Below are positions 12,029-35,277 of a stretch of DNA of 64,000 nt, one piece after another. Every line of letters starts with the position of its first letter. The first letter of the stretch is position 1. The position numbers and the translations under genes are program-made. Below the pieces are notes generated by a model. That model ran no database searches. It was not told where the DNA came from and saw only the letters and a program-made list of their open reading frames with translations. The stretch is from an uncultured Bacteroidales bacterium (lineage in GTDB: Bacteria > Bacteroidota > Bacteroidia > Bacteroidales > Paludibacteraceae): NCBI GenBank assembly GCA_900319645.1, contig ONPG01000004.1, positions 62,001 through 126,000 on the forward strand, given 5' to 3'.

Positions 12029-12093
12029 TGCCGGCATCGAGCCGCTAATCACGCTATAATAACGCTATAATCACGCTATAATCACGCTATTTT
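12029..12093. repeat. 65-bp dispersed repeat, copy 1
   Basis: This segment is repeated at 31094-31158 with one mismatch. It holds four ACGCTAT words, most within an 11-base period ACGCTATAATC, and begins TGCCGG. Both copies lie between divergent genes, just behind the promoter of the minus-strand gene. Confidence 0.85.
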
Positions 12094-18142: not shown

Positions 18143-18700
18143 ATGAAAATAATCGGGTTTGTATATCGAGAAGGAGAAAAGACCACCGGGAAAGGTGAGA
18201 AAGAGGGCAAATGGACGATGGTTTTGAAAGGCGATTCGTGCCTTCTGAACGGTCGCAAGCCCTTGTTCATCCCCGACTGGACGAAGGAATTAGGGATGAC
18301 TCCGTGTTTGGTATTACGCGTGAGCCGTTTAGGCAAAGAGATCAGCGAACGCTTTGCCGGACGTTATTATGACGCCATCGCCCCGGGAGCGGATTTCGCA
18401 GCCTTGGATCTGCTACGAGAAGCGCAGGAGGAAGGCTCGAGTTGGACACCCTCAATCGGATTCGACTACTCGCTTGCCCTCGGAGAATGGATGGATATCC
18501 AAAAGGACGATGTACAAAGTACAAAGGAATGGGTGATGACGCCAGAAAAAGCGATAGCCGAAGCCAGCCGCTGGATGACCATCCGTCAAGGCGACCTCAT
18601 TTATATACAAGCCCAAGAAGCTCCACGGAGGGTGGAGAAAGAAGAAATAATCCGTTTTGCCGTTAACGGCGAAGAAAAACTATATTGCAAAATCAAATAA
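18143..18700 (+). CDS. Degenerate fumarylacetoacetate hydrolase (FAH) family protein
   Basis: The protein has 185 residues. The middle part (DSCLLNGRKPLFIPDWTKEL, then LVLRVSRLGKEISERFAGRY and YDAIAPGADFAALDLL) follows the FAH-domain pattern seen in other Bacteroidetes. At the position where FAH enzymes have the metal ligands ExE (YETELVV type), this protein has TPCLVL. The central part before the C-terminal strands (ISEASR-like stretch and RQGDLIYI) is shortened and contains the 39-bp inserted element (residues 118-130). It therefore looks unable to bind the catalytic metal and may be a structural or regulatory remnant. It is the first gene of the porU operon, and its TAA is separated by one base from the porU ATG. 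Confidence 0.7.
   Translation: MKIIGFVYREGEKTTGKGEKEGKWTMVLKGDSCLLNGRKPLFIPDWTKELGMTPCLVLRVSRLGKEISERFAGRYYDAIAPGADFAALDLLREAQEEGSSWTPSIGFDYSLALGEWMDIQKDDVQSTKEWVMTPEKAIAEASRWMTIRQGDLIYIQAQEAPRRVEKEEIIRFAVNGEEKLYCKIK
18494..18532 (+). repeat. 39-bp coding repeat element in the FAH-like gene
   Basis: It encodes 13 codons, DIQKDDVQSTKEW, in frame. The same element, in the same frame, occurs at 32983-33021 and 34753-34791 in mfd. An intergenic relative lies at 23352-23390. Confidence 0.8.
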
Positions 18701-18701
18701 G

Positions 18702-21700
18702 ATGAAACGATTCGCAACAATCCTCGTATTCGCAGCGATGAGTCTGTCCCTGACGGCAGGCATTCATACGTATGTGGATGAGTCGGTATTAAGTACCGGA
18801 CACTGGGTGAAAATCCGCGTGAAAGAAACAGGTGTATGCCGCATGACGTTCGACGAGTTGCGCAAAGCCGGTCTGAACCCACAGCAGTTGCGTGTGTACG
18901 GCTACGGCGGTGTGATGCTTGCGCAGGACTTCACCAAGAAAAAGATAGACGACCTGCCCCAAGTGCCGGTATATATGGGCGAGGATTATGTGCTGTTCTA
19001 CGTTCGCGGCAACATAGGATGGAGCTACAACGGCGCACGTTTCGTTCACACCCGCAACACGTATTCCGACTACGGATACTACCTGCTGAGCGACGACACG
19101 GGCGAGATGCTGGCTCCCACGGAGGGCGAAGCTATCAGCGGCACTCCGACAGAGGTGAGTTTCTATACGAACTATCAGGTACACGAAGAGGATTTGCTGA
19201 ACCTGGTGGACCGCACAGGCATCTCGGGCGGCGGACGTGAGTTCTACGGCGAGCAGTTCAACGGCGGTCAGACACAGAGTTTCGTGTTCAAGACCCCGAA
19301 TGCCCGCGAAGGCGAGCAGACCATCGCCTATGTAACAACCGCCGGCTACTCGAGCACGACCTCCACCTTCCAGATCAACGCGAACGGTCAGATCAGCACA
19401 ACCCGTATAGAGGCCGTGGTAAACGACCACTACACGATGGCCAAAACAGGCAGCACGTCCATGCGTGTGCCCGCTCAAGCCAACGAGCAGAAAATGGAAC
19501 TGACTTATCAGAACCACACAAGCGGCGCGTTAGGATGGCTGAACTATATTGAATGGATGGTTCCGTGCGACCTGAAGATGTCCGGCGACTGGATGGGAAT
19601 ACGGACAAACATCAATTATCTGAGCAACACCCCGGTACGTTTCCACTTGTCAGGAGCCGATACGAACACCCAGATTTGGGACGTAACCCACCCTCAGTCG
19701 ATCGTAAGAATGCCCGCCACCATTGAGGGCGACGAGATGCTATGGACAGGTACGCAGGCAGACGGCATCCATGAGTACATAGCCGTGAACACCCGCGGTC
19801 AGAAATGGGTGGATGCCGAAGTGGTGGGCGAAGTAGCCAACCAGAACCTTCACCGGTTGAAGAATATCGATTACGTGATCATCTGCCCGGTGGGATACGA
19901 AAGTATCAGCGAGCAGTTAGCACGCGCCCACGAAGAGAAAGAAGGATACACATGGGCGGTAGTGACCGACCAGCAAGTGTATAACGAGTTCTCGTCGGGC
20001 ACACCGGACGCTACGGCTTACCGCTGGCTAATGAAAATGCTGTATGACCGTGCGGACGAAGTGAATGCCAAGCCAAGATGGCTGCTGCTAATGGGTCACG
20101 GTACGTTTGACAACCGCAAGTTGCTGAACTACTCCGGTGTGAGCCTGCTACTAACTTATCAGTCGAAGAACTCGACCAAAGAGGTGGATGCCTATGCGAC
20201 GGATGATTATTTCGGTTTTTTGGACGATAACGAAGGCGAGTTGGACACCGCCGGAACCATGGATATAGGCGTGGGACGATTGCCATTCGGCAACCAAGAC
20301 GAAGCGCAAGGTGTGGTGAACAAAATCATCACTTATATGCGTAACGAGAACCCCGGCAAATGGAAGAGCCAATTGGTTTATCTGGCAGACGACGGCGACC
20401 ACGGCGGACACACGGAGACCTCGGAACAAAGTGCAGAACGCGTGAGATTAAAGAATTTAGATTTCATCGTCCACAAGATTTATCTGGACGCCTATCCGCA
20501 GGAAGTGAATGCCAGCGGCGAGAGTTACCCTATCGCCAAAAACAAAGTGCTCAACCTGCTGAAGAACGGAGCTTTGTTCTTCGATTATTCGGGTCACGGC
20601 GGCTACAACGCGATTACCAACGAGTCGATTCTGAACCTGCGTGACATAGAAAGCATGAACAATGTGAATCAAGCATTCTGGCTGTTTGTGACCTGTAATT
20701 TCGCACAATGCGACGCTGGCAAACGTTCGGCAGCCGAAGCCGCCGTGCTGAACCCCAACGGAGCAGCGATCGGGGTGTTGTCCGCTACGCGTACCGTATA
20801 TGCGTCGCAGAACACCAACCTCAACCGTAACGTGTGCGACACATTGTTCGGTCACAGGAATCCATTCCACTATGACATCACCATCGGCGAAGCAACTGCT
20901 ATCGGCAAGAACAAGACAGGAGCCGACTCCAACAAACTGGCATATGTGCTATTAGGCGACCCTGCCTTACGGATCAACTACCCCACCGAATTCCAGGTAG
21001 CGACGACCACCGTCATGGACACGCTCAACGCACTGGATGTACAGCAGGTGGAAGGACAGATTATAGATGAGGACTCGACGGTAGTGACGGAGTTCAACGG
21101 CGAAGTAGATATCACTGTTTATGACAAACTGCAGGTAATCACCACCCGCGACAACGATGCGAGTGGTAGCGGAACAGACACCGCCAAGTTGCTGTATTAC
21201 AACGATTACCCGAACGTGCTGTTTACCGGAACCGCTCAAGTGACGGAGGGTAAGTTCAACTATACGTTTATGGTTCCCAAAGACATCCGGTATAATTACG
21301 GCAACGGCCGAATCGCTTATTATGCCCATACTACTGACGGCGGCGAGACGATGGAGGCAGTGGGTCATTTCCATGATTTCACGGTGGGCGGTTCGAACAG
21401 CAGTCTGCTGGCAGATACCGTTGGACCGGAGATGATTATTTATCTGAACAGCCCCGCCTTCAAAAACGGCGACAAGACATATGCCACTCCGCGTTTCTTT
21501 GCCGACCTGTATGACATACACGGCATCAACACCGCCGGAGCAGGCATCGGTCACGATCTGATGCTGATTATCGATAATGATCCGAAGAAGACCTATTCGC
21601 TCAACGAGTATTTCTCGGCATCGAACAACAGTTATCAATCGGGCCAGGTAAGTTACCTCATGGATGCCCTCTCCAACGGCTCTCACAGCCTGAGTTTCCG

Positions 21701-22055
21701 TGCATGGGACATGCTGAACAACAGCACGACGAAGACGCTTAATTTCATCGTGGATGCAGGGCTGGATCCATCCATCTACTCTGTGACGACATACCCCAAC
21801 CCGGTAGAAGAGAGCGGAGTGCTGAATCTGGTAGTCAACTACGACCAGCCGGACGAGTTGCTCTCAACAGAAGTATATATCTACGACATGAGCGGCCGTA
21901 TGGTTTGGAGCCACACGCAGGCTAATCCCGACCAGGTACAAGTGCCTTTCGGACAAATCGGCGTGAAGGCAGGTATATATATGTACAGCGTAAAAATCAA
22001 ATCCGCGACGAGCGGGTATAGTACCTCGTCGGGCAAAATCATTATTACCAAATAA
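18702..22055 (+). CDS. porU: Type IX secretion system sortase PorU
   Basis: The protein has 1117 residues with a signal peptide (FATILVFAAMSLSLTAG). A long N-terminal beta-rich part leads to a gingipain-like C25 peptidase domain (about 395-760). It contains DYSGHGGYN with the putative catalytic histidine at 632 and TCNFAQCD with the putative catalytic cysteine at 665, followed by LLGDPALRI. The C-terminal 85 or so residues, starting YPNPVEESGVLNL and containing YIYDMSGRMVW, are a typical type-A sorting domain. PorU cleaves the sorting domain from secreted cargo and attaches A-LPS at the cell surface. The start at 18702 was chosen because the upstream extension lacks a signal peptide. porV follows, as expected for this pair. 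Confidence 0.95.
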   Translation: MKRFATILVFAAMSLSLTAGIHTYVDESVLSTGHWVKIRVKETGVCRMTFDELRKAGLNPQQLRVYGYGGVMLAQDFTKKKIDDLPQVPVYMGEDYVLFYVRGNIGWSYNGARFVHTRNTYSDYGYYLLSDDTGEMLAPTEGEAISGTPTEVSFYTNYQVHEEDLLNLVDRTGISGGGREFYGEQFNGGQTQSFVFKTPNAREGEQTIAYVTTAGYSSTTSTFQINANGQISTTRIEAVVNDHYTMAKTGSTSMRVPAQANEQKMELTYQNHTSGALGWLNYIEWMVPCDLKMSGDWMGIRTNINYLSNTPVRFHLSGADTNTQIWDVTHPQSIVRMPATIEGDEMLWTGTQADGIHEYIAVNTRGQKWVDAEVVGEVANQNLHRLKNIDYVIICPVGYESISEQLARAHEEKEGYTWAVVTDQQVYNEFSSGTPDATAYRWLMKMLYDRADEVNAKPRWLLLMGHGTFDNRKLLNYSGVSLLLTYQSKNSTKEVDAYATDDYFGFLDDNEGELDTAGTMDIGVGRLPFGNQDEAQGVVNKIITYMRNENPGKWKSQLVYLADDGDHGGHTETSEQSAERVRLKNLDFIVHKIYLDAYPQEVNASGESYPIAKNKVLNLLKNGALFFDYSGHGGYNAITNESILNLRDIESMNNVNQAFWLFVTCNFAQCDAGKRSAAEAAVLNPNGAAIGVLSATRTVYASQNTNLNRNVCDTLFGHRNPFHYDITIGEATAIGKNKTGADSNKLAYVLLGDPALRINYPTEFQVATTTVMDTLNALDVQQVEGQIIDEDSTVVTEFNGEVDITVYDKLQVITTRDNDASGSGTDTAKLLYYNDYPNVLFTGTAQVTEGKFNYTFMVPKDIRYNYGNGRIAYYAHTTDGGETMEAVGHFHDFTVGGSNSSLLADTVGPEMIIYLNSPAFKNGDKTYATPRFFADLYDIHGINTAGAGIGHDLMLIIDNDPKKTYSLNEYFSASNNSYQSGQVSYLMDALSNGSHSLSFRAWDMLNNSTTKTLNFIVDAGLDPSIYSVTTYPNPVEESGVLNLVVNYDQPDELLSTEVYIYDMSGRMVWSHTQANPDQVQVPFGQIGVKAGIYMYSVKIKSATSGYSTSSGKIIITK

Positions 22056-22148
22056 TAACTAATCACAAAGAAAGATCGCCTATGAAGCATATCGCTTGAA
22101 ACATTTGAACCAAACAACAAAGCAATACATTAATTTTACAATAAACAA

Positions 22149-23351
22149 ATGAAAAAAACAATTATTTCTCTGGCAGCAGTGCTGTTTACCCTTCAGGCAG
22201 GAGCCCAGGGTACTCCCGATGCCACAATGAACCCTCTTATTACCTCAATGCCGTCTTTGTCGATAGCTCCGGATGCCCGTGCCGCCGGTTTGGGCGACCA
22301 AGGTGTGTCCACAGAGGCAGATTTCAACTCGCAGTACTGGAACCCCGCCAAGTACGCATACATGTACACGAAAGGCGGTATAACCGCGAACTACACGCCG
22401 TGGTTGCGCAAACTGGTAAGTGATATTGACCTTGCTTATTTGGCAGGTTTCTATAACTTCGGCGACCTGGGAGGCGGTATCGGAGCATCGTTCACCTATT
22501 TCTCGATGGGTGATGTAGCCTTGACCGACGGAGACGGAAACACTCTGCAGAACGTACGTCCGAACGAATGGGCATTGGATGTGAGCTATTTCCGTAAGTT
22601 ACATGAGTATGTGTCGATGTCGGTAGCGGTACGTGTACTCTACTCCGACTTGAACAACGGCTATAACAGTTCTATCGGAGGCGGAACGGAAATGCGTCCG
22701 GCAGTAACCGCGGCGGCCGATGTGGCGTTGTACTACCGCCAGCCTATTGACCTGCCTATGGGAACCAGCCATTTCGCATTGGGTTTCACACTGAAGAACT
22801 TGGGAGGAAAGATGACGTATGACCGCGTGACGAGCAACTTCATCCCTGCGAGCATGAATATCGGTGCAAGCTATGAGTTGCCGTGCGACAAGTATAACTT
22901 CCTGACCTTCTCTCTGGAAGCGAACAAAATGCTTGTACCGAGCCGTAAGTCGCGATTCACCGAAGGCTTTGACCCGAAAGACGAGAGCACATGGCAGATG
23001 AGCCAGGACGCTTATTCGGCACTCAACCCGGCTAAGGGATGGTTCCAGTCGTTCGCCGATGCTCCGGGCGGTGCCCGCGAGGAGTTTAACGAGGTTCGCT
23101 GGGGAGCAGGTATCGAGTACAGCTACAACAAGCAGTTCTTTGCCCGTGCAGGTTACAGCTATGAGAACTTCTACAAAGGTAACCGTAACTACCTCACTTT
23201 CGGAGCCGGTTTCCACCTGTCGATTGTTACTCTGGACGTGAGCTACTGCGTTGGTTTGGCAGCCAGCAACCCGCTTGACCAGACGATGCGCTTCACGCTT
23301 GGCTTCGACCTTTACGGCATCAAAGACCTGGTTAACAACCGAAAGAAATAA
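22149..23351 (+). CDS. porV: Type IX secretion outer-membrane protein PorV (LptO)
   Basis: The protein has 400 residues with a signal peptide (IISLAAVLFTLQAGAQG). The N-terminus after cleavage carries PSLSIAPDARAAGLGDQGVS, a signature of PorV/FadL-like barrels in this phylum, followed by alternating beta strands to the end. PorV shuttles cargo from the translocon to the PorU sortase and is an outer-membrane barrel. It sits directly after porU, in the same operon. The next gap is filled by a repeat that begins right after its stop codon. Confidence 0.95.
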   Translation: MKKTIISLAAVLFTLQAGAQGTPDATMNPLITSMPSLSIAPDARAAGLGDQGVSTEADFNSQYWNPAKYAYMYTKGGITANYTPWLRKLVSDIDLAYLAGFYNFGDLGGGIGASFTYFSMGDVALTDGDGNTLQNVRPNEWALDVSYFRKLHEYVSMSVAVRVLYSDLNNGYNSSIGGGTEMRPAVTAAADVALYYRQPIDLPMGTSHFALGFTLKNLGGKMTYDRVTSNFIPASMNIGASYELPCDKYNFLTFSLEANKMLVPSRKSRFTEGFDPKDESTWQMSQDAYSALNPAKGWFQSFADAPGGAREEFNEVRWGAGIEYSYNKQFFARAGYSYENFYKGNRNYLTFGAGFHLSIVTLDVSYCVGLAASNPLDQTMRFTLGFDLYGIKDLVNNRKK

Positions 23352-23390
23352 GTACAAGGTACAAAGGGACAAAGTACAAGGTACAAAGGA
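23352..23390. repeat. Spacer repeat of GTACAAAG words
   Basis: AGTACAAGGTACAAAGGGAC followed by a second round of the same words fills the entire gap between the porV stop and the ispF start. It is the intergenic relative of the in-frame 39-bp element. Weaker relatives lie at about 55700-55740 and 59709-59727. Confidence 0.8.
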
Positions 23391-23391
23391 T

Positions 23392-23862
23392 ATGAGAATT
23401 GGATTCGGATATGATGTACATCAGTTCACCCCTGACCGCCCATTGTGGTTGGGGGGAATTGTTGTACCATCGGAGAGAGGGTTGCTCGGCCATTCGGACG
23501 CCGATGTAGCCATCCACGCGTTGTGCGACGCACTCTTAGGAGCAGCAGCCATGCGGGATATAGGTTATCATTTTCCTGATACCAAGGGCAATGAGTTTGA
23601 GGGTATTGATTCGAAGATTCTGCTTCGCCGTGTGATGGAGATGATTCGTAAGGAGGGTTATGAACTCGGTAACTGCGACATCACTATTTGCGCGCAAGCC
23701 CCCAAACTCAATCCTCATATCCCAGCCATGCAAGCCTGTCTGGCAGAAGTTATGGGCGTTGCGCCCTCCCAAATCAATATCAAAGCGACCACAACCGAGC
23801 ATCTCGGTTTCGTGGGACGCGAAGAAGGAATAGCGGCACAAGCCGTAGCATTGATCAACTAA
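23392..23862 (+). CDS. ispF: 2-C-methyl-D-erythritol 2,4-cyclodiphosphate synthase
   Basis: The protein has 156 residues, the normal length. It starts MRIGFGYDVHQF with the zinc-binding DVH motif. It also shows GLLGHSDADV with the second histidine/aspartate site, the phosphate-binding DIGYHFPDTK, and the family end ATTTEHLGFVGREEGIAAQA. It catalyses the fifth step of the MEP pathway of isoprenoid synthesis as a trimer. The upstream in-frame extension to 23251 is rejected because it runs through the spacer repeat. Dxr of the same pathway is encoded at 49464-50621. Its stop overlaps the ATG of the next gene. Confidence 0.97.
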   Translation: MRIGFGYDVHQFTPDRPLWLGGIVVPSERGLLGHSDADVAIHALCDALLGAAAMRDIGYHFPDTKGNEFEGIDSKILLRRVMEMIRKEGYELGNCDITICAQAPKLNPHIPAMQACLAEVMGVAPSQINIKATTTEHLGFVGREEGIAAQAVALIN

Positions 23863-24236
23863 TGCGTAAGATTTTAGTATTCATATTCGTTTCTCTGTCC
23901 GTTGTGTATGCACATGCAGAGAGAGATGTGTTTGAGCAGGTATCCAAAGATCTGCTCCGCATGGGCGGAAAGCCCTCCGTAGCGGAGCAGAGCGGGCCGT
24001 ACACCCTCATTCAACTGACCGACAGCACAACTTTAGAGATCTACGAGGGTGACAAGTACACCGTAGTGATGACCGTTTGCGCGCCACAATGTTCATCATA
24101 CGCGCGCGTATATAATAAGGAAGGGGTACTTCTCTACCCTATAGAGCCGACCGTCACATCCATCTTTCCTCTTGCCAGTATGGACAAGCAAACGGGGGAG
24201 ATCACCTGGAAGGACAATGACAACTGGGAATATTAG
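23862..24236 (+). CDS. Small exported protein of unknown function
   Basis: The protein has 124 residues with a clear signal peptide (ILVFIFVSLSVVYAHA). The mature part is mixed alpha/beta with two cysteines in VCAPQCSSYARVY that could form a disulfide bond. I do not recognise a domain. The ATG overlaps the ispF stop (TAATG), and aroK follows after one base, so the gene is embedded in the operon and should be translated in step with its neighbours. Location in the periplasm or as a secreted protein is inferred from the signal peptide alone. Confidence 0.75.
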   Translation: MRKILVFIFVSLSVVYAHAERDVFEQVSKDLLRMGGKPSVAEQSGPYTLIQLTDSTTLEIYEGDKYTVVMTVCAPQCSSYARVYNKEGVLLYPIEPTVTSIFPLASMDKQTGEITWKDNDNWEY

Positions 24237-24237
24237 C

Positions 24238-24789
24238 ATGGAACTTCCAATTTATTTAGTGGGTTATATGGGAGCCGGCAAGACAACCGCCGGGCGCATA
24301 CTGGCAGACAAACTCGGCTGGTATTTTGTGGATTTGGACGAAGCATTCAAGGAGATACACGGTCTGTCCACCGCCGACTACATCCGCAAGCATGGTCTTG
24401 AGGAGTTCAGGAAAAAAGAGAAATACGTAGTAGAGGACATCGCCGACCAAATGCCGTATGAGAAAGTGATTTATGCCACGGGCGGCGGTTATCCGTGCTG
24501 GGAAGACAACATGGAATGTCTCCGAGAATTAGGGACCAGTATATATATCCGCTGGTGTCCCGAGCACCTTGCCAAGCGTCTGAGTCTGACCGATTTGAGC
24601 GAAAGGCCCGTTTTGCAAGGAAGGACAGAAGAGGAGTTGCTTGCCTTTATTGCCCCACAGCTGGAGGCGCGCGAGCCATACTACCGCCAAGCCCACCATA
24701 TATTAGACGTAAGCGAGTGCGACGAACACTCGGACGAGCGTATCGCCGAGGAGTTGTACCAATTTATCATCAATAACAGAAGAAAATGA
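24238..24789 (+). CDS. aroK: Shikimate kinase
   Basis: The protein has 183 residues. It shows the Walker A motif GYMGAGKTT (9-17), VDLDEAF with the shikimate-contacting aspartate, an arginine in EEFRKKEK, the glycine-rich ATGGGYP and the lid arginine in ERPVLQGR. It phosphorylates shikimate at the 3-hydroxyl, the fifth step of chorismate synthesis. The frame is open upstream to 24172, but the ATG at 24238 begins the conserved core. It overlaps sufE by four bases (ATGA), which indicates coupled translation. Confidence 0.96.
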   Translation: MELPIYLVGYMGAGKTTAGRILADKLGWYFVDLDEAFKEIHGLSTADYIRKHGLEEFRKKEKYVVEDIADQMPYEKVIYATGGGYPCWEDNMECLRELGTSIYIRWCPEHLAKRLSLTDLSERPVLQGRTEEELLAFIAPQLEAREPYYRQAHHILDVSECDEHSDERIAEELYQFIINNRRK

Positions 24790-25205
24790 ACAAAACCATT
24801 AACGAGATACAAGACGAGATCATCGAAGATTTCAGCGATTTGGAATGGTTAGACCGCTACCAGATGATTGTAGATTACGCGAAAGAGTTAGAGCCTTTTG
24901 ATCCGGCAGACCGTACGGAGCAGAACCTGATAGACGGATGTCAATCCAAAGTGTGGTTTACCGCCAAGATGGAAGAGGGGAATCTCGTTTTCCGCGGCGA
25001 CTCGGACGCGATATTAGTAAAAGGAATCGTAGCGCTTCTGATTCATGTGTTAAGCGGTCACAGTCCAAAAGAAATCGCCGATGCAGATTTATACTTCATC
25101 GACGAAATTCAGTTGCGCGAGCATCTCAGCCCCACGCGAAGTAACGGCGTAGCCGCTATGCTCAAGCAAATGAAACTCTATGCTCTCGCATATGCCAAAC
25201 TATAG
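24786..25205 (+). CDS. sufE: SufE-family sulfur acceptor protein
   Basis: The protein has 139 residues, matching SufE/CsdE over the whole length. The active cysteine lies in DGCQSKVWF (Cys52), and the C-terminal pattern LSPTRSNGVAAML is conserved. SufE accepts persulfide sulfur from the SufS desulfurase and passes it to the Fe-S scaffold. No other suf gene is in the window. It is the last gene of the porU operon, and its TAG stop lies within the stem of the terminator. Confidence 0.93.
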   Translation: MNKTINEIQDEIIEDFSDLEWLDRYQMIVDYAKELEPFDPADRTEQNLIDGCQSKVWFTAKMEEGNLVFRGDSDAILVKGIVALLIHVLSGHSPKEIADADLYFIDEIQLREHLSPTRSNGVAAMLKQMKLYALAYAKL

Positions 25206-25230
25206 CCTTCCGCTATAGTTTTTTTTTTTA
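25198..25230 (+). terminator. Intrinsic terminator of the porU-sufE operon
   Basis: Arms AACTATAG (25198-25205) and CTATAGTT (25213-25220) are followed by a run of about ten T. The stem includes the sufE stop codon. Confidence 0.9.
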
Positions 25231-27383: not shown

Positions 27384-27408
27384 AGGTTAATTTTTACACA
27401 ATTTGGCA

Positions 27409-27456
27409 CAAAGGTACAACATTTTTTTGATATGTGCAAAAAAAATTGTAACTTTG
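27409..27456. promoter_or_regulatory. Divergent promoter pair sharing a palindromic -33 element
   Basis: The minus-strand promoter has TACCTTTG at 27409-27416. The plus-strand promoter has TAACTTTG at 27449-27456. Between them lies TTTGATATGTGCAAA (27426-27440), a near-palindrome that supplies the TTTG box for both directions. Confidence 0.75.
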
Positions 27457-27475
27457 CACGCAATTTTGTAAAATT

Positions 27476-28255
27476 ATGAATACTCATTTCGCTTTAGTGA
27501 CCGGATCGTCGTCCGGAATCGGCCTTTCTTTGGCAAAAGGCTTAGCCTCGAGGGGCTACGACTTACTCATCGTCAGCAACGAGGAAATGATCCATACCCG
27601 TGCTCAAGAACTGCGTGCATCGTATCCCGGATTGCGTGTCGAATCGCTGGTTATGGATCTGAGTTTGCAGAACGCAGCCCGTGACCTATATGAATATACG
27701 CACGCGCACGAGATGGAGATAGAAGTGCTGGTGAACAACGCGGGTGTGTATCACGACCGTGACATACTGGATGACAGCGAGGCGTTCACATCGCTTATTC
27801 TGAACCTGCACATGTACACTCCTGCCATGCTTTGCTATTTGTTCGGTCAGGACATGCGCAAGCGAGGGAAGGGTTATATACTGAACGTGTGCTCCGTGAC
27901 GAGCAAGATCGTGGCACAAAGGCTTGGCACTTACGCCTCGACGAAGTCGTTTTTGGCGGCTTTCACCCGTTCGCTCCATATCGAGTTGAAGCCATACGGC
28001 GTGTATGTGACGAATGTGAGCCCGGGAGCTGTGGATACAGGATTGTACAATATCAAGCCTATCTATACCAAAATAGGCAAATGCCTGGGAATAATCGCGA
28101 GTCCTGAGATGCTGTCAAAGCGTGCTCTCAGGGCTTTGTTCCACGGCCGGAGCAAAGTGACCGTTCCGGCTGTGTTCTGGCATCTGCTGACCTTTATTAT
28201 ACAGCTGATTCCGACTTGTGTGCTACGGCTGATAAGACGTTTGGGTTGGTTCTGA
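27476..28255 (+). CDS. Short-chain dehydrogenase/reductase
   Basis: The protein has 259 residues with a classical SDR fold. It has the cofactor motif TGSSSGIG (10-17), NNAG in VLVNNAGVYH, a serine in the stretch NVCSVTS and the catalytic pair YASTK. The C-terminal 30 residues (VPAVFWHLLTFIIQLIPTCV) are hydrophobic, as in membrane-associated SDRs acting on lipid substrates. The substrate is not deducible. It is followed after one base by the SprT-like gene. Confidence 0.9.
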   Translation: MNTHFALVTGSSSGIGLSLAKGLASRGYDLLIVSNEEMIHTRAQELRASYPGLRVESLVMDLSLQNAARDLYEYTHAHEMEIEVLVNNAGVYHDRDILDDSEAFTSLILNLHMYTPAMLCYLFGQDMRKRGKGYILNVCSVTSKIVAQRLGTYASTKSFLAAFTRSLHIELKPYGVYVTNVSPGAVDTGLYNIKPIYTKIGKCLGIIASPEMLSKRALRALFHGRSKVTVPAVFWHLLTFIIQLIPTCVLRLIRRLGWF

Positions 28256-28256
28256 G

Positions 28257-28967
28257 ATGAGAGCGACAGTAGAATACATACAAGCGCGTTTTGACAGCTA
28301 TAACGAGCAGTTTTTCGGCGGCTCGCTACCTCCTATTCCTATCCGTTTGAGCCATGCGAAAGGATTCTTAGGGAAAGTCACTTTCACAAGGAGGCGGAAA
28401 GGGTTGTTTCAGAAGTACAAGAACGAGGATTTTGTACTTCGTATCAACGTGCGAATCGACCTGCCGGAAGAGGTAGTGGAAGACACTATCCTGCATGAGA
28501 TGATACACTACTATATCGCTGTCAATCAATGGAATGACACATCCGTGCACGGGCAATTATTCCGTCGTGAGATGGAGCGAATCAACCGGGAGGGGAACCG
28601 CCATATACGTATCTCGCACAGGCTAAGCGAAAGCGAACAACGGGAGGCGAGCGTGAAGAAAGGCCGGATAGTGGGAATCGTGCATTTCGAGGACGGGCGT
28701 ACGGGTATCAAGATTGTCCCCAAACAAGTCCGTCATCTGATCACATGGAACAGACGCGCAAAAAGTACTTACCAATTGGGAATCAAGCAGATAGAATGGT
28801 ATTACACAGACGACGAGTACTTCGCCAAGTACCCGTCGTCTGTTGCTTTACGGATTTATCTAGTAGATAAACCAGAGGAGATTCCTTTGCAGAAGGCACA
28901 CCAGATCGTGATAGAAGAGAATTGTGTGCGGCTGATTACCCATCCAGGAAGCAGCCTGAGATGGTAA
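28257..28967 (+). CDS. SprT-like zinc metalloprotease domain protein
   Basis: The protein has 236 residues. The zinc motif HEMIH (80-84) and the third ligand region with HGQLFRREM are those of SprT/Spartan-type peptidases. The N-terminal RFDSYNEQFFGGSLPPIPI segment is also typical. Related proteins cleave DNA-protein crosslinks, but many bacterial members are uncharacterised. The C-terminal third is a Bacteroidetes-type extension without a recognised domain. It is co-directional with the SDR gene and ends six bases from the stop of the convergent symporter gene, leaving no room for a separate terminator. Confidence 0.85.
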   Translation: MRATVEYIQARFDSYNEQFFGGSLPPIPIRLSHAKGFLGKVTFTRRRKGLFQKYKNEDFVLRINVRIDLPEEVVEDTILHEMIHYYIAVNQWNDTSVHGQLFRREMERINREGNRHIRISHRLSESEQREASVKKGRIVGIVHFEDGRTGIKIVPKQVRHLITWNRRAKSTYQLGIKQIEWYYTDDEYFAKYPSSVALRIYLVDKPEEIPLQKAHQIVIEENCVRLITHPGSSLRW

Positions 28968-28973
28968 AGTAGT

Positions 28974-29834
28974 TTATTTCTTCAGTTTGGTTATTCCCAC
29001 GTACGCCAGGAGGACGAGGTTCATCATAAGCGCGTAGATGATGGCGGGAATAGCGATCACTTCATTATTGAAAACCAGGGGACTACAAGCGATTGTGATT
29101 GCCTGTGCGGCATTCTGCATGCCGATTTCTATGACCAAGGTACGTCTTTCTCTTCCGGAGAGGCGTGCGAGCCATGCCAAGCCGGCTCCACAGGCCGTGG
29201 AAGCCAGAATGAGAAGGGTCATCATCAGCCCGAGCGAAGCGAAATGGGTGACGATGGTCTGTTTGTGCTGGACAAAGAAAATCGTGACGAGAAGGACCAA
29301 AGCCGGCATAGCTATCCGCTTGAGGACGTTGTGGATCTTCTCTGCCGCGGCGGAGCGATAGAGGTTGATCACAAAGCCAATAGAGATAGGAACCACCATC
29401 AGTACTATATTCTGTATCAGCAGTTTACCGACAGGTAGATGGATATTAACCGTCTCCCCCACTCCGGCTGTAACCCACGCCATGATAAGCGGCAAGGTGA
29501 AGAGTGTGATGATGGAAGAACAGGCTGTGAGTGTGACGGAAAGTGCCACGTCGCCTTTAGCCAGCATGGAGAAGACGTTGCTGGAACTGCCTCCGGGCGA
29601 GCAAGCTACCAGCATGATACCAATAAGGAAAAGAGGCGAGAGCTGTGCGGAGAAAGGCGTGAGCGTAATCAATCCCCAAGCGATAAGCGGGAGAAGGATG
29701 ATCTGTCCGATAAGTCCGATGAGGACGGGTTTCGGTCGTTCTGCAATCAGACGAAAGTCCGCCGGGCGGAGCGTCAGACCCAGATCGAACATCAACAGGG
29801 TGAGAATAGGCAGGACAATAAAAATTGCATTCAT
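28974..29834 (-). CDS. Bile acid:sodium symporter family (BASS) membrane protein
   Basis: The protein has 286 residues with nine or ten hydrophobic segments. The motifs MLVACSPGGSSSNVFSMLAKGD and IGMQNAAQAI(T)IA are the two conserved sodium-site regions of the BASS/SBF family. It probably imports an organic anion with sodium in the inner membrane; bile acid is only one of several known substrates. It is the last gene of a three-gene group with the epimerase and the unknown 165-residue protein (gaps of 3 and 6 bases). Confidence 0.9.
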   Translation of the reverse strand: MNAIFIVLPILTLLMFDLGLTLRPADFRLIAERPKPVLIGLIGQIILLPLIAWGLITLTPFSAQLSPLFLIGIMLVACSPGGSSSNVFSMLAKGDVALSVTLTACSSIITLFTLPLIMAWVTAGVGETVNIHLPVGKLLIQNIVLMVVPISIGFVINLYRSAAAEKIHNVLKRIAMPALVLLVTIFFVQHKQTIVTHFASLGLMMTLLILASTACGAGLAWLARLSGRERRTLVIEIGMQNAAQAITIACSPLVFNNEVIAIPAIIYALMMNLVLLAYVGITKLKK

Positions 29835-29837
29835 AGA

Positions 29838-30515
29838 TTAGCGGTTGAAAGATCCAGCCAAGATAGTTATGTCACGTCCGTTGATGGCGTAATGTGCATA
29901 GCCGTCACGGGTACATGCGAGCATGGAGAGCGCTACTTCTGTCATGGAGTTTGCCATTCCGAAGAGGCGCATGAGAGGATAGAAAAGGAGATAGATGAAC
30001 TGCATTTTCTGCATACATTTCTGGCCTTTCGCCCATCTCATGAGTGCCGGACGGTAAGCAAAAGTATGTCGGAAACCGAGCGTCCGGATATAGTTCTCTG
30101 TTGCCCCTTTAATGGGCATCCACCATTGTTTGCCATTCGGGTCGGTTCCTGCTCCGGAGAGGTAGATATAGGTCATTTGGTCCTTGTCAGGCATGATATC
30201 CGCAAAATGGGCGGGTATGTCGTACGAGATCCGTTTATAGACGTCTTCGGGCGTGCCGATAGAGGTTATTCCCGCAATAAAAAAGACGGCATCGTATCCC
30301 CGGAAATGCGGGTCTCCGGGTTGTAACGTCATGAAATCGGGGATGAGATACTCTTCGAGTTTGGCTTTTTCGTCCGCCGTGAGGGTTTGGTAGCGGTTGA
30401 TTTGTACGGAACGCCGGCTGACGGACAAGACTTTTTCGACTTGGGGCGTTCGCAAGAGTTCGAGTAGCACTCCTTCGCCCACATATCCCGTGGCTCCAGT
30501 AAGAATGATTTTCAT
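29838..30515 (-). CDS. NAD(P)-binding epimerase-like protein
   Basis: The protein has 225 residues. The N-terminus MKIILTGATGYVGEG is the Rossmann dinucleotide-binding motif of atypical SDRs (YbjT/HTATIP2-like). AVFFIAGIT and YIYLSGAGTDPNG follow the fold, while the usual YxxxK pair is replaced by a weaker KGATEN region. It is likely an oxidoreductase or epimerase of unknown substrate. The C-terminal third contains a hydrophobic stretch (FIYLLFYPLMRLFGMA). It is cotranscribed with the symporter. Confidence 0.8.
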   Translation of the reverse strand: MKIILTGATGYVGEGVLLELLRTPQVEKVLSVSRRSVQINRYQTLTADEKAKLEEYLIPDFMTLQPGDPHFRGYDAVFFIAGITSIGTPEDVYKRISYDIPAHFADIMPDKDQMTYIYLSGAGTDPNGKQWWMPIKGATENYIRTLGFRHTFAYRPALMRWAKGQKCMQKMQFIYLLFYPLMRLFGMANSMTEVALSMLACTRDGYAHYAINGRDITILAGSFNR

Positions 30516-30521
30516 ATGATG

Positions 30522-31019
30522 TTACTTGATTTCGTTAGAGATGACCGCTCTGAGGAAAGTGTAGAGCGTGTAATAGTGGCGGTATTGGGGCTGCGCGGAA
30601 TGGGTGTTGTAGTCAGGCGAAGACTTCGGGAGAAGCGAGGCGGCAGGATCCGGTTCGCCGGAGAGTTGCGCCTCGAAACGCGCTTGGTATTCAGCAAGTT
30701 GCGAGCGGAGTTGCTCCGCTTTCTTGCGTTTAGCGGCAGGGAGAGAAGCGATCTGCTCGGGCGTGAGTTGGCCCGCTTCGAGAAGCTCCTGTGAGCGTCG
30801 GAGCGCCTCCGAGAAACGGTTCATGTTCGCGAGTTCGGCTCCTTTGGGCGGTTTCTTTTTGAAATCGCGCGGGTTGGCGATGTGATAAGCCTCCTGTGCG
30901 TACGAATGAAGAACGGCTCCAGAGGCGGAGCGGATTTTTTTCTGGCGGAAGACGGTTCCTTCCTTGGTGTAAGCTCCGTGGAGTTCGGAGATGGTGTCGT
31001 TGAGTTGCGCTTTAGACAT
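30522..31019 (-). CDS. Unknown charged helical protein
   Basis: The protein has 165 residues. No domain is recognised. Residues 55-125 are rich in A, E, K, Q and R and predicted helical, with PPKGAELANMNRF and AEQLRSQLAEYQARFEAQ. The stretch LHSYAQEAYHIANPRDFKKKP precedes this. There is no signal peptide or membrane segment, so it should be cytosolic and might bind nucleic acid because of its basic character, but that is a guess. It is the first gene after the promoter at 31175-31206. Confidence 0.7.
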   Translation of the reverse strand: MSKAQLNDTISELHGAYTKEGTVFRQKKIRSASGAVLHSYAQEAYHIANPRDFKKKPPKGAELANMNRFSEALRRSQELLEAGQLTPEQIASLPAAKRKKAEQLRSQLAEYQARFEAQLSGEPDPAASLLPKSSPDYNTHSAQPQYRHYYTLYTFLRAVISNEIK

Positions 31020-31093
31020 ATGTTTAAGGGTTTTGTGGATCCGCCAAACGTGGCGGATACAGGGTTTAACAATGTGGAAAAAGGTGGTTAATG

Positions 31094-31158
31094 TGCCGGT
31101 ATCGAGCCGCTAATCACGCTATAATAACGCTATAATCACGCTATAATCACGCTATTTT
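31094..31158. repeat. 65-bp dispersed repeat, copy 2
   Basis: One mismatch from 12029-12093 over 65 bases. It lies in the same setting, between the start of a minus-strand gene and a plus-strand gene, but here it is downstream of the minus-strand promoter, in the leader of the 165-residue protein. Confidence 0.85.
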
Positions 31159-31174
31159 AACCAACAATCGGGTG

Positions 31175-31206
31175 CAAAGGTACAACATTTTTTTGACATA
31201 CACAAG
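31175..31206 (-). promoter_or_regulatory. Promoter of the unknown-epimerase-symporter group
   Basis: The minus strand reads CTTGTGTATGTC (31195-31206) and TACCTTTG (31175-31182). The transcript would include the 65-bp repeat in its leader of about 150 bases. Confidence 0.7.
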
Positions 31207-31287
31207 AGGAGAGGGAAAAAATTCGCAAAAAAGGGTTGTTTTAAGAAAAAAACATAAAAAACATTTTTGCACCTTGAAAAAACGGCG

Positions 31288-31500
31288 AATTAGGCGAATT
31301 AAGCGAATATTTATTGTTCACGAATTAAACGAATTAAACGAAGGTTTATTGTTCACAAATTAAACAAATTAAACGAAGGTTTATTGTTCACGAATTAAAC
31401 GAATTAAACGAAGGTTTGTCCGGCAAAGAAATACATAAAGGGACATAAAAGGGACATAAAAGGAATGTAAAAGGAATGTAAAAGGAATGTAAAAGGAAAA
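31288..31500. repeat. Minisatellite block upstream of mfd
   Basis: At 31288-31416, AATTAAACGAATTAAACGAA words alternate with GGTTTATTGTTCAC in about three units of 42-43 bases. At 31438-31500, GGGACATAAAA (2 copies) and GGAATGTAAAA (3 copies) follow. No ORF is supported in 31207-31525. Confidence 0.8.
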
Positions 31501-31525
31501 GAAAAAACAAAAAAGACGAGGGAAA

Positions 31526-31557
31526 TTTGCATATGTCAAAAAAAAGTTGTAACTTTG
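31526..31557 (+). promoter_or_regulatory. Promoter of mfd
   Basis: TTTGCATATGTC (31526-31537) and TAACTTTG (31550-31557). This is the best match in the window to the extended consensus. It leaves a leader of about 195 bases that is full of repeats. Confidence 0.85.
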
Positions 31558-31626
31558 CACGCTAATTTGCGATAATACGCGCGCACGCACGAATAATAAC
31601 GAAAGGGGAAACCCCAAAAAGGGGAA

Positions 31627-31675
31627 CCCCACCCTAACCCTCCCCACAAGGGAGGGAAGCGGGATTAAATCCCGC
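31627..31675. repeat. Hairpin words CCCTCC/GGGAGG and GCGGGATT/ATCCCGC in the mfd leader
   Basis: ACCCTCCCCACAAGGGAGGG (about 31637-31656) is the same word that is translated in lptD at 12891 and 12963. GCGGGATTAAATCCCGC (31659-31675) matches the palindrome at 9652-9666 except for the two central bases. Both would fold in the mfd transcript leader. Confidence 0.75.
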
Positions 31676-31702
31676 GGAAATAAAGAAAAACAGCAAGACA
31701 TT

Positions 31703-31784
31703 GTGCAGAGATAGAGAGGATTTGAAGAGATCGTGCATATAGAGGATTTGAAGAGATTGTGCAGATAGAGGATTTGAACATATT
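31703..31784 (+). repeat. Triplicated start-codon region of mfd
   Basis: GTGCAGA-GATAGAGGATTTGAA type units begin at 31703, 31733 and 31759 (30, 26 and 26 bases). Each supplies a GTG. The first two open short frames that stop at TAG within 12 to 36 bases. Only the third GTG is in frame with Mfd. Confidence 0.8.
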
Positions 31785-34700
31785 GTTCGGACAACACCCG
31801 GAAATTGAATTGATCAGACGGGAACTGGGACGCGGCAAGGACACTCATGTACTTGTCAGCGGACTACATGCCAGCGCAAGAGGACTCGCCTTCGCAAACC
31901 TTGCACACAAAGGGATGACACGGGGTGGAAACAAAGGGATGGATGCGCAGGGATTGAGAGGAAACGGAGGGATGGCAGCACAGGGATTGAGAGGAAACAG
32001 AGGGATGATGACAGAGGGATTGAGCACTTTCTTTATTGTCATGGACAATGCGGAGGCAGCACAATATTTGTTCGCGGACCTGAAGACACTATCCGGAGAA
32101 GAGGTTTATCTGTTTCCTGCTGCACAGAAAAGACGGGCAGTAGATGAAGCCGCACAAATACAACGGACAGAATGTCTGGCTGCCTTGACAAAGACACCAA
32201 ACCAAGCCTCACAAAGCCCCACCCAGCAAGGGAAAGACAGGAAAAGCGAGAAAGCAAGTGACAAGGCTATTACAACGGAATTGCAAAATTCCATTCTTGT
32301 TGTTACTTATCCGGAGGCGATGGCGGAGAGTGTGCCGGCTAAAGAGGAACTGAACAGGTCGAGTTTGCAACTGCAAAAAGGCGAGGAGATACAAGTGACG
32401 GAACTCGGAAATATGCTTTCGGAATTAGGTTTCGAGCGCGTGGATTTTGTGTTCCAGCCAGGTCAGTATGCCATCCGCGGAGGAATAGTGGATATATACA
32501 GTTACAGCCACGACAACCCTTACCGTCTGGACTTCTTCGGCGACGAGATAGACAGTATCCGCGAGTTCGACATAGAAGACCAGTTGAGCAAAAACCGAAT
32601 CGAAGAAGCGATTACTCTCACTCCGGGTCTGTCCACAAGAGAAGGCGAGAAAGCCAGTATCGTGGATTACCTGCCGGAAGAGACCGTTTGGGTAAGCAAC
32701 GACTGGAGTGTGGTGAGATACAAATTAGAGAGCAGCCTTCAAAATCCCTTCCCTGCCGCAAAGGGAGGAGAGTGGCTGGCTGGCAAACGGACCATCGAGA
32801 TGGCGGAGAAGAGTTATTTCCCCAACTGCTCGAAGATCGCTTTTGACATCGTGCCGCAACCTGTATTCCACAAGCAGTTTGACCTGCTGACGGAAGACAT
32901 CAAAAAGCACATCGAGGAAGGATACAAAGTGTATATCCTTGCCGACCAAAAGAAACAGCTGGACCGACTGGAAGCGATATTTGATGTCCAAAGGGACGAT
33001 GTACCAAGTACAAAAGACGAAACGGTTGTCACGTTTACCGGCATCAACACCGCCCTGCACGAAGGATTTATCGACCACGGGCTGAAGATATGCTGCTATA
33101 CCGACCATCAGATATTCGAGCGCTACCACCGTGTGACGATGGCAAGCGAGAACGCCCGCAGAGGCAAAGCGATCATCACCTTGCGAGAAATCAACCAGTT
33201 GCAGGTGGGTGATTATGTCGTTCACTCCGACCACGGCATAGCGAAATTCGGCGGTCTGGTGACCACTCCCGTAAACGGCAAGCCTCAGGAGATGATCAAG
33301 CTGATTTACCGGGACAACGCGAACGTGTTTGTGTCGATACACAACCTGCATCGCATCAGCAAATACAAAGGCAAAGAAGGCAGCGAGCCGACGATTTCCC
33401 GTCTGGGAAGCGGTCAATGGGAGCGTCTGAAAGAGCGTACGAAGGACAAAGTCAAAGAGATAGCCCGCGACCTGATCAAGCTATACGCGACCCGCAAGCA
33501 GCAACAAGGCTTCTCCTATTCGCCGGACGGATACCTCCAACATGAGCTGGAGGCATCGTTCCTCTACGAAGACACTCCGGATCAGGCGAAAGCGACGGCG
33601 GAAGTGAAGCACGATATGGAAAGTCCGATGCCGATGGACCGTTTGGTATGCGGCGACGTGGGCTTCGGGAAGACCGAAGTGGCAATGCGTGCCGCCTTCA
33701 AAGCCGCGACAGACGGCAAACAAGTGGCTGTGCTCGTTCCTACGACCGTACTGGCACTCCAACACTACAACACGTTCCGCGAACGAATGGCGAACATGCC
33801 CGTGCGGATTGAATACCTCAGCCGTCTGAAAAGCGCCAAAGAGACGAAAGAGACACTTGCGGACCTGGCGGAAGGCAAGATAGACATACTAATAGGTACG
33901 CACAAATTAGTCGGGAAAAGCGTCAAATGGCATGATTTAGGGCTTCTGATCATCGACGAAGAGCAGAAACTCGGCGTGGCAGTCAAGGAGAAACTGAAAT
34001 CGCTCAGGACGAATATCGACGTGCTGACGCTGACCGCTACTCCTATTCCGAGGACGTTGCAGTTCAGTTTGTTAGGTGCCCGGGACCTGAGTGTGATGAC
34101 CACCCCGCCACAGAACCGCTACCCTGTGCAGACCGAGATGATTACGCTGGACGACGAGGATATCATCAAAGAGGCGATAGACTTGGAGATGGGTCGCAAC
34201 GGACAGATCTTCATCGTCAACAACCGTATCGACATGCTGCCCCGTATCGAACGCCGCATACAGAAACTCTGCCCGGAAGCACGTATCGTGACCGCTCACG
34301 GACAGATGCCGGCAGATGAGATGGAAGAGCGGCTGGAGGCGTTTATCAACTATGATTACGACATCCTGATCTCCACCACCATCATCGAGTCGGGCGTGGA
34401 CATCCCGAACGTGAACACGATGCTGATCTTCTCCGCCGACCGCTACGGATTAGCCGACCTGCATCAGTTGCGCGGCCGCGTGGGCCGATCGAACCGCAAA
34501 GCGTATTGCTACCTGATCACTCCCGACCGCGAGTTGCTGACCGCCGACGCAAGACGAAGACTGGAGGCATTGAGCACCTTCGCGGAGTTAGGAGCAGGAT
34601 TCAACCTCGCCATGCAGGATCTGGACATCCGCGGAGCAGGAAACATGCTCGGGTCGGAACAATCGGGATTCATAGCCGACTTGGGTTACGAGACGTACCA

Positions 34701-35277
34701 GCGGATATTGAACGAGGCGATAGAAGAGCTGAAAGACGAGGAAGGGCTGGTAGATGTACAAGGGGACAATGTACAAAGCACAAAGGAACGGACATGGTGT
34801 TCGGACGCCCAGTTGGAAACCGACCTGCCGATCAGTTTTCCGACCGACTACATCCAGAACATCAGCGAGCGAATCACTCTTTACCGCGAGTTGGACGGTT
34901 TGCGAAGCGAAGAGCAGATACTGGATTTCCGCAAAAGGCTGATAGACCGCTTCGGACCACTACCAGAACCCGCAGAGGAGTTGCTGTCCGTAGTGAGACT
35001 GAGATGGCTGTGCTGCAGATTGGGAATAGAGAAAATACTCCTGAAACAGGAGCGGATGACCATCTATTTCGTGCAGAACAAAGACGCATACTGGCAATCC
35101 AATACGTTCGGGAAAGTAATCCAATACGTGCTTACCCGTCCAGACCGATGCAATATGGTGGAAGAACGCGACAAGAAAGGCGTTAAAACCGGCCGGCGCT
35201 ACGCTTCGATACTGAATGTGAAGACGATTGCCGGCGCCACCAATTTACTATCAAAAATAGAGAAAGGAGAATTATGA
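31759..35277 (+). CDS. mfd: Transcription-repair coupling factor Mfd
   Basis: The protein has 1172 residues. The UvrB-homology part covers about 1-440, the RNA-polymerase-interaction domain about 475-560 (GDYVVHSDHGIAKFGG), the translocase motor about 600-950 with Walker A GDVGFGKTEVAMR and the DEEQ box (IIDEEQKLGV), and the C-terminal regulatory domain the rest. Mfd removes stalled RNA polymerase at lesions and recruits UvrA. The start is a GTG at 31759; homology begins at once (IEDLNILFGQHPEIELI). Five insertions of repeat words are visible: 11-residue repeats near 52-90, PTQQGKD near 150, NPFPAAKGG near 330, and the 39-bp element at 409-421 and 999-1011. All are in frame and lie in loops outside the motor motifs. 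Confidence 0.96.
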   Translation: MQIEDLNILFGQHPEIELIRRELGRGKDTHVLVSGLHASARGLAFANLAHKGMTRGGNKGMDAQGLRGNGGMAAQGLRGNRGMMTEGLSTFFIVMDNAEAAQYLFADLKTLSGEEVYLFPAAQKRRAVDEAAQIQRTECLAALTKTPNQASQSPTQQGKDRKSEKASDKAITTELQNSILVVTYPEAMAESVPAKEELNRSSLQLQKGEEIQVTELGNMLSELGFERVDFVFQPGQYAIRGGIVDIYSYSHDNPYRLDFFGDEIDSIREFDIEDQLSKNRIEEAITLTPGLSTREGEKASIVDYLPEETVWVSNDWSVVRYKLESSLQNPFPAAKGGEWLAGKRTIEMAEKSYFPNCSKIAFDIVPQPVFHKQFDLLTEDIKKHIEEGYKVYILADQKKQLDRLEAIFDVQRDDVPSTKDETVVTFTGINTALHEGFIDHGLKICCYTDHQIFERYHRVTMASENARRGKAIITLREINQLQVGDYVVHSDHGIAKFGGLVTTPVNGKPQEMIKLIYRDNANVFVSIHNLHRISKYKGKEGSEPTISRLGSGQWERLKERTKDKVKEIARDLIKLYATRKQQQGFSYSPDGYLQHELEASFLYEDTPDQAKATAEVKHDMESPMPMDRLVCGDVGFGKTEVAMRAAFKAATDGKQVAVLVPTTVLALQHYNTFRERMANMPVRIEYLSRLKSAKETKETLADLAEGKIDILIGTHKLVGKSVKWHDLGLLIIDEEQKLGVAVKEKLKSLRTNIDVLTLTATPIPRTLQFSLLGARDLSVMTTPPQNRYPVQTEMITLDDEDIIKEAIDLEMGRNGQIFIVNNRIDMLPRIERRIQKLCPEARIVTAHGQMPADEMEERLEAFINYDYDILISTTIIESGVDIPNVNTMLIFSADRYGLADLHQLRGRVGRSNRKAYCYLITPDRELLTADARRRLEALSTFAELGAGFNLAMQDLDIRGAGNMLGSEQSGFIADLGYETYQRILNEAIEELKDEEGLVDVQGDNVQSTKERTWCSDAQLETDLPISFPTDYIQNISERITLYRELDGLRSEEQILDFRKRLIDRFGPLPEPAEELLSVVRLRWLCCRLGIEKILLKQERMTIYFVQNKDAYWQSNTFGKVIQYVLTRPDRCNMVEERDKKGVKTGRRYASILNVKTIAGATNLLSKIEKGEL
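31912..32030 (+). repeat. 33-bp in-frame tandem repeat in the Mfd N-terminus
   Basis: Copies begin at 31912 (partial), 31936, 31969 and 32002 and translate as GMDAQGLRGN, GMAAQGLRGN and GMMTEGLS. They interrupt the first UvrB-like domain just after the segment SARGLAFANLAHK. Confidence 0.8.
32983..33021 (+). repeat. 39-bp coding repeat element, first copy in mfd
   Basis: Codes for DVQRDDVPSTKDE (residues 409-421) in the same frame as the copies at 18494 and 34753. Confidence 0.8.
34753..34791 (+). repeat. 39-bp coding repeat element, second copy in mfd
   Basis: Codes for DVQGDNVQSTKER (residues 999-1011), at the boundary between the motor and the C-terminal domain of Mfd. Confidence 0.8.

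Follow-up and report, generated by a model that had tools for sequence, protein, structure and literature searches.

The palindromic elements of Rickettsia (RPEs) and Wolbachia (WPEs) are dispersed repeats that lie in frame within housekeeping genes, at solvent-exposed places of the encoded proteins (PMC3767692, PMC10969869). RPEs are palindromic and about 100–150 bp long, and in R. japonica different RPE families are found at nearby sites of one gene, with a hint that insertion sites are shared (PMC3767692, PMC10969869). Heptanucleotide repeats are an overrepresented class in bacteria; examples are the heptanucleotides of Calothrix, GGGAATC of Xanthomonas, and TAACTGA, which also occurs in five Bacteroidetes, and such repeats are intergenic or over-represented between genes (PMC4692102, PMC4679880). 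PARCELs are tandem domains of 25 residues in open reading frames (ORFs) lacking assigned functions (PMC2996958). The present report concerns a short repeat in a stretch of 64,000 nucleotides (the window; contig ONPG01000004.1, positions 62,001–126,000, assembly GCA_900319645.1) from an uncultured Bacteroidales bacterium of the family Paludibacteraceae. The repeat is built of heptamers, is dispersed through the genome in genes and spacers, and stands in conserved proteins at sites that hold other repeat families in related genomes.

Like RPEs and WPEs, this repeat is dispersed and in frame in housekeeping genes and absent in most relatives; one host, QueA (tRNA ribosyltransferase-isomerase), is common to both. 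It differs from the 100–150 bp palindromes of RPEs in that it measures about 30–40 bp, consists of heptamers, lacks inverted repeats of at least 8 bp around the three window copies, and is used from both strands, signal peptides included. The comparison with RPEs made in a preliminary description of this DNA holds for the in-frame position in conserved genes and fails for the palindrome or hairpin and for the length; the repeat works like these elements but belongs outside their class. The small dispersed repeats of cyanobacteria are likewise very small dispersed elements. With heptanucleotide repeats it shares the 7-nt tandem unit, the many dispersed short arrays and the patchy distribution among relatives, but the arrays described here also provide conserved genes with protein loops, signal peptides and linkers at the C-terminus, and these change from species to species. 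As in PARCELs, repeat DNA has spread into coding sequence, but here as single short inserts within conserved enzymes (PMC2996958). Of the marks of miniature inverted-repeat transposable elements (MITEs), terminal inverted repeats were not found at the three window copies, nor was a consistent target duplication at 67 copies. Such an element had been thought undescribed for Bacteroidales; heptamer repeats are in fact published for some Bacteroidetes (PMC4679880), whereas no paper on the in-frame dispersal of heptamer repeats in proteins was found in the open-access literature. The observation is real and joins known kinds, as heptamer repeats that behave like RPEs.

The repeat and its copies in the window

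Three segments of 39 bp in a common reading frame had been reported, two in the ORF of Mfd and one in that of a FAH-like protein, and all three were confirmed at the positions below, together with a non-coding copy.

18494..18532, + strand: repeat copy 1, phase 0, encoding DIQKDDVQSTKEW in a loop of the FAH-like protein, after LALGEW
18143..18700, + strand: gene of the FAH-like host protein, 185 aa (Pfam FAA_hydrolase, E 9.1e-9)
32983..33021, + strand: repeat copy 2 (Mfd site 1), phase 0, encoding DVQRDDVPSTKDE
34753..34791, + strand: repeat copy 3 (Mfd site 2), phase 0, encoding DVQGDNVQSTKER
31759..35277, + strand: gene of the host Mfd, transcription-repair coupling factor, 1172 aa
23352..23392, + strand: non-coding copy, the whole spacer between the porV stop codon and the ispF start codon

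The three coding copies agree pairwise at 29–32 of 39 bases. Their architecture is (GTACAAA)G(GGACAAT)(GTACAAA)(GTACAAA)GGA, a row of heptamers in which a single step measures 8 nt, and the conserved stretch is about 32–35 bp; the fixed 39-bp unit first proposed is therefore better described as a composite of heptamers. The spacer sequence, initially listed as a near relative, is a copy, but in another register: aligned as first given it matches the other copies at 10–11/39, and a shift of 7 bases brings its agreement with the 32-mer consensus to 30/32. A further match to the 15-mer core within Mfd (33437–33451) reads RTKDKV inside WERLKERTKDKV and is taken as chance because that stretch is conserved in relatives. 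On translation, a pure heptamer array has no stop codon in any frame of either strand. The sense reading of the repeat in phase 0 is the polar VQxDxVQSTKE, and the opposite strand reads as a hydrophobic stretch like FVLCTLYFVL.

Spread through the genome and choice of strand

The draft genome, 84.2% complete, measures 2.64 Mb and is divided into 48 contigs. It holds 134 matches to the 15-mer core with up to 2 mismatches, against 10 for a reversed-pattern control, and 22 matches to the 32-mer with up to 3 mismatches, against none for its control. Further copies are thus present, the repeat is dispersed, and the copies have a composite unit in common. The proposal of a dispersed element tolerated in coding sequence is borne out by these copies and by the absence or difference of the residues in most relatives, described below. 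For closer study 40 stretches were fetched, which with the window cover all 22 places of the 32-mer and part of those of the core; a simple gene caller trained on them gave 263 genes and called 90% of 289,631 bases coding. Since the stretches are centred on listed matches they are no unbiased sample of the genome, and this applies to the 51 of 64 core clusters that fall in called genes (43 sense, 8 antisense, 13 without a called gene). Seven of the eight antisense clusters are N-terminal.

The same count was made for the 67 copies that match the 32-mer at 24 or more of 32 bases, with gene starts as given by the caller and position classes defined after the data had been seen. Internal copies are all sense (28, divided 22, 3 and 3 by phase), with no antisense copy among them, whereas the first 30 residues hold 7 antisense and 4 sense copies. 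The last 45 residues hold 17 sense copies (8 in phase 0, 1 in phase 1, 8 in phase 2), and 11 of the 67 have no gene call. Under random placement, a hand calculation gives about 2 in 100,000 as the chance that all 7 antisense copies among the 39 internal and N-terminal ones should be N-terminal. The single frame of the preliminary description thus applies to the three window copies and gives way, genome-wide, to several phases and both strands. The seven N-terminal antisense copies resemble signal-peptide cores (for example MKRFSIYIVLCTLSLSTLLSSCG and MKTSKYILYFVLCTFVLSLVSCE), and so do the copies at L004, L009 10157, L023 and L037, which have no gene call. Judged by sequence pattern (a basic start, a hydrophobic core, often a cysteine), antisense copies are read as supplying predicted signal-peptide cores.

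At some C-termini the repeat in phase 2 encodes the motif LYLMYNGTMYNVQG (L003 2599-2630, L008 2437, L009 2518, L014 2559, L018 5607, L026 2496, L030 2561 and L034 1475), and some of these tails stand directly behind a phase-0 copy. The proteins concerned are presumably cargo of the type IX secretion system. These tails may be the origin of the repeat or a further target of it.

Host proteins and length of the inserts

Pfam was applied to 20 of the 44 listed host ORFs. Hosts of the 32-mer are a UPF0004/radical-SAM/TRAM protein (MiaB/RimO type), an aromatic amino acid lyase, a 2-oxoacid:ferredoxin oxidoreductase subunit, DsbD, a Mur ligase, RibD, DXP synthase (Dxs), QueA, RsgA, a uracil-5-methyltransferase type protein and an OPT transporter. 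The signal-peptide group comprises an M49 peptidase, an outer membrane efflux protein, a GDSL lipase, a thioredoxin-like protein and two DUF proteins; host ORF L019 had no Pfam match. RibD carries three copies and RsgA two. Histidyl-tRNA synthetase (L028), with a core match only (VESTKT), was left uncounted because a 32-mer match is missing.

An element inserted into proteins had been claimed, and this is true of some hosts and not of others. In comparison with solved structures, the repeat coincides at least in part with gaps, of 9 residues in RibD (2hxv), 11 in QueA (1yy3), 12 in RsgA (1u0l) and 7 in Dxs (2o1s). RibD site 1 has 5–6 residues in 15 of 30 genomes, 13 in genome G000 and 8–18 in others. 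At Mfd site 1 the window has 54 nt against 27–30 nt in the relatives L041, L119 and L120, which amounts to 8 additional residues relative to L041 (30 nt). There is, then, a net gain of 7–12 residues at Mfd site 1, RibD, QueA, RsgA and Dxs. Mfd site 2, in contrast, measures 54 nt in the window and the same in the distant L119 and L120, about 10 residues more than in Escherichia coli Mfd, and the FAH loop has 14 residues against 9–22 elsewhere; in both, a variable linker of similar length has been replaced. The FAH-like protein has a match in 57 of the 61 genomes searched in the genus (its own included) and none among solved structures at E 0.001.

The same sites in related genomes

For comparison 80 Mfd loci were used, whose titles name Paludibacteraceae, Bacteroidales, one Bacteroidia and one Prevotellaceae, and whose named sources are mostly ruminant; one locus without an ORF above 900 aa was dropped, leaving 79. 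Absence of the 13 residues at the same positions in relatives, which bears directly on the claim of a dispersed element, is the rule. At Mfd site 1 the form DVQ.D.V.STK occurs in 0/79 relatives, with a related GTAGAAAGTACAAAGAC stretch reading VESTKTKDRP in L068 and L092. At site 2 the peptide family of the repeat is present in 5/79 (L044, L045, L048, L061, L077), and other relatives have other repeat-like peptides, such as NPSLEGGAQ..PSGEGRGEA, QMVNGK..NEKM, SLQDGSASLQDANATG, NDEMSATTSLNDG and LSTLDSRLSTLDSR. Family labels at this site follow the authors' own patterns, and many peptides (35 of 80 rows) lie outside the named families. In the best-matching locus, L041, site 1 is without the peptide and site 2 holds the NPSLEGG type.

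The other hosts behave in the same way. In the FAH-like loop the family is found in 3/29 relatives (L122, L123, L124), and many of the remaining loops hold other families, several of them identical to those of Mfd. At RibD sites 1 and 3 the family is mostly absent and other repeats are present in relatives. The signal core of an M49 lipoprotein is formed by the element in 2/30 genomes (G000 and G179). Self-agreement of this region at an offset of 7 is 11/17 in G155, 11/14 in G167, 11/17 in G173 and 17/20 in G178, against 3/21 and 6/20 in two control genomes, the stretches and controls having been picked by eye after the data were seen. Different repeat families therefore share the same sites in Mfd, the FAH-like protein, RibD and one lipoprotein signal.

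A separate repeat type was seen by eye in some alternative Mfd inserts (sites 1 and 2) of L099, L071, L042 and L051, which look short and hairpin-like, with varied stems between constant short direct repeats; an example is GAGCGCTTCGCTC between AATGATG units.

Repeats within single genomes

For two pairs of genes, inserts of one genome resemble each other. Local similarity between Mfd and FAH inserts is 19.4 within and 14.2 between genomes (28 genomes; 1/20000 permutations, and 24/20000 without G000). For FAH and RibD inserts the corresponding figures are 63/20000 (17 genomes) and 408/20000 without G000. Among 33 genomes, in which reversed controls gave at most 2 matches, the pattern GTACAAAGTACAAAG with one mismatch has 0–45 matches per genome, and AATGGACAATGGACA has 98 in G000, 89 in G179, 43, 38 and 32 in three more and 0–9 in the rest. 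G179 has (AATGGAC)n in the FAH loop as well as at Mfd site 2, with 89 matches in the genome. Of 150 genomes of the family, only G000, G021 and G134, which belong to the window's genus, have at least 20 matches to GTACAAAGTACAAAG; the maxima outside the genus, 13 and 12, come from a tandem array in one contig and from variant units. When 12-mers of the Mfd inserts were sought elsewhere in the same locus, both window sites gave 0/43, the loci being short for such a search; over 160 rows the result was mostly 0–3, the best being 24/49 at site 1 of L042.

Exact runs of period 7 number 103 in the 80 relative loci (1.08 Mb) against 0.3 expected, followed by periods 11, 9 and 8 with 28, 23 and 18. 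Arrays of short period are thus general here.

How the copies may have spread

The account considered probable is that a non-autonomous heptamer repeat has been copied into many places of the genome and kept where its peptide is harmless, and that linkers are rewritten from resident repeats. A composite G[T/G]ACAA[A/T] repeat with 7-8-7-7 spacing would be copied as a unit of about 30–40 bp. Judging from the pattern of strand and phase, copies may survive where the encoded peptide does no harm: the polar sense reading would suit loops, and the hydrophobic antisense reading the cores of signal peptides. In other genomes of the genus the same permissive sites hold other repeat families, which suggests that linkers are rewritten from the repeats present in each genome. 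Copying could proceed by templated repair from an ectopic site or by gene conversion between non-allelic sites, without a dedicated transposase, and selection would then act on frame, strand and phase. The evidence is strong for dispersal and site sharing and weak for the copying mechanism.

A wider form of this proposal holds that permissive segments throughout the genus (linkers, loops, signal peptides and C-terminal tails) are continually rewritten from short-period repeats, with the non-coding pool as the main source of new linkers in essential enzymes and the two strands giving opposite kinds of peptide. It is offered tentatively, as slightly less likely than not.

Several observations weigh against copying from a resident pool. 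The likeness of Mfd and RibD inserts within genomes is weak (455/20000 permutations, 16 genomes) and is unsupported on its own because the signal vanishes without G000 (3627/20000). The pattern AATGATGGAATGAGCG has 0–11 matches per genome in the 33 genomes (reversed controls at most 2), yet its peptide is common at the sites. At RibD site 3 of G173 (L218), DVQSTKE is written in different codons (GATGTTCAATCGACCAAGGAA) in a genome with 0 core matches, and is either an old copy or a motif at the protein level. With the looser 15-mer core, one of the eight antisense clusters is internal (L009 8109, a hydrophobic stretch). An AlphaFold model of Mfd (39 sequences) has low pLDDT at 416–419 and 994–1009, and also in the other insert stretches 54–86 and 150–175, but this is weak support because the whole model is poor (mean pLDDT 68.2, pTM 0.43, conserved domains low too). 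No gain or loss was observed between near-identical genomes, and with it no act of copying. Part of the turnover could, moreover, be due to exchange of linkers between species by homologous recombination.

Taken further, that last point becomes an explanation in its own right, in which whole linkers are swapped between species and the diversity reflects exchange, not copying within genomes. Linkers of sister species can differ completely, an observation that also favours the copying account. The sister species L055 and L058 share 93.5% of mfd core DNA, yet their linkers at site 2 are entirely different and sharply bounded. The site-2 linkers of L062 and L064, at 91.5% mfd identity, are entirely different as well, and here the neighbouring sequence differs too, as exchange would lead one to expect. 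On a tree of Mfd built with variable columns removed, the named site-2 families are scattered and need at least 19 changes over 45 rows, the unnamed rows being excluded; for the VQSTKE family, with 6 rows, 6 changes are needed. Exchange nevertheless leaves unexplained why the same DNA stands in unrelated genes and spacers of one genome, and why Mfd and FAH inserts are alike within genomes, and as the whole explanation it is judged unlikely.

Equally improbable is a miniature element (MITE, REPIN or palindromic element) mobilised by a transposase and retained when in frame. Its attraction lies in the in-frame position in housekeeping genes, which recalls RPEs, in the words GAATGGATG and GAATGGGTG that flank copy 1, and in Y1_Tnp matches in 15 of 33 genomes, G000, G021, G134 and G179 included. 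The structural marks of such an element were not seen, however. Inverted repeats of 8 bp or more are absent around the three window copies. Across 67 copies the longest words shared by the two flanks average 4.16 against 3.97 when permuted (9/200 permutations reach this), and flanks share 6 bp or more in 6 copies against 4.0 expected, which gives no consistent signal of target duplication. Y1_Tnp was not found in six copy-rich drafts (G185, G167, G190, G178, G162 and G202; 25–39 core matches, 63–97% complete), and no clear link to a Y1 transposase emerged from a search confined, among transposases and reverse transcriptases, to Y1_Tnp. A hairpin element was also considered and rejected: besides the lack of inverted repeats, the three coding copies and L012 fold weakly (−2.3 to −7.9 kcal/mol, z −1.3 to −2.5). 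The porV–ispF spacer copy alone folds better than 200/200 shuffles (−7.6, z −5.2), its own GTAC units pairing.

Local replication slippage, by which heptamer arrays would arise anew at each site, accords with the abundance of period-7 runs in the relative loci, the commonest short tandem repeats there. It is nonetheless very unlikely, because copies at unrelated places, among them antisense and non-coding ones, repeat the irregular 7-8-7-7 composite. One 8-nt step is present in 46/66 copies. The irregular spacing, with the second upstream unit at −15, is found in 33/44 sense copies against 2/44 with regular spacing, and in 13/22 antisense or no-gene copies against 2/22. Its presence in the latter argues that it is no product of selection on frame, and its recurrence that the copied unit is longer than a heptamer. 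Finally, that VQxDxVQSTKE is a functional protein motif under selection, as the recoded DVQSTKE of G173 might suggest, is scarcely credible when the same DNA is used in other phases, on the opposite strand and between genes, and when relatives carry unrelated peptides at the same sites.

If copying from resident repeats is correct, dispersed short repeats can supply new protein sequence wholesale to essential bacterial enzymes. Their turnover would be rapid between sister species, with no mobilising enzyme yet in sight in a search that covered Y1_Tnp only. The spread of in-frame elements such as RPEs would become testable in a genus with dozens of species genomes. Nor need the linkers and signal sequences of such genomes mirror the common descent of the proteins.

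Other repeats in the window

Mfd contains a different repeat in its N-terminal part:

31927..32024, + strand: 33 bp × 3, encoding a 41-aa loop

Among the 79 relatives, L106 and L080 have other loops of 30–31 aa at this place, and the remainder have at most 11 aa. An identical 11-mer array, TAATCACGCTA, is present in 4.1 copies each at 12046–12090 and 31111–31155, upstream of a 1066-aa ORF at 12605 and of mfd, respectively. That ORF (12605–15805), which is taken to resemble LptD, has another in-gene repeat family, a 72-bp tandem repeat (12851–13003) that gives TSPQPSPQGRENSATDS twice. Searched against Rfam at gathering score, the window gives a single match, to a tRNA (53381–53453). Tandem repeats with periods of 45, 36, 48 and 35 lie at 5325–5580 and 31286–31417.

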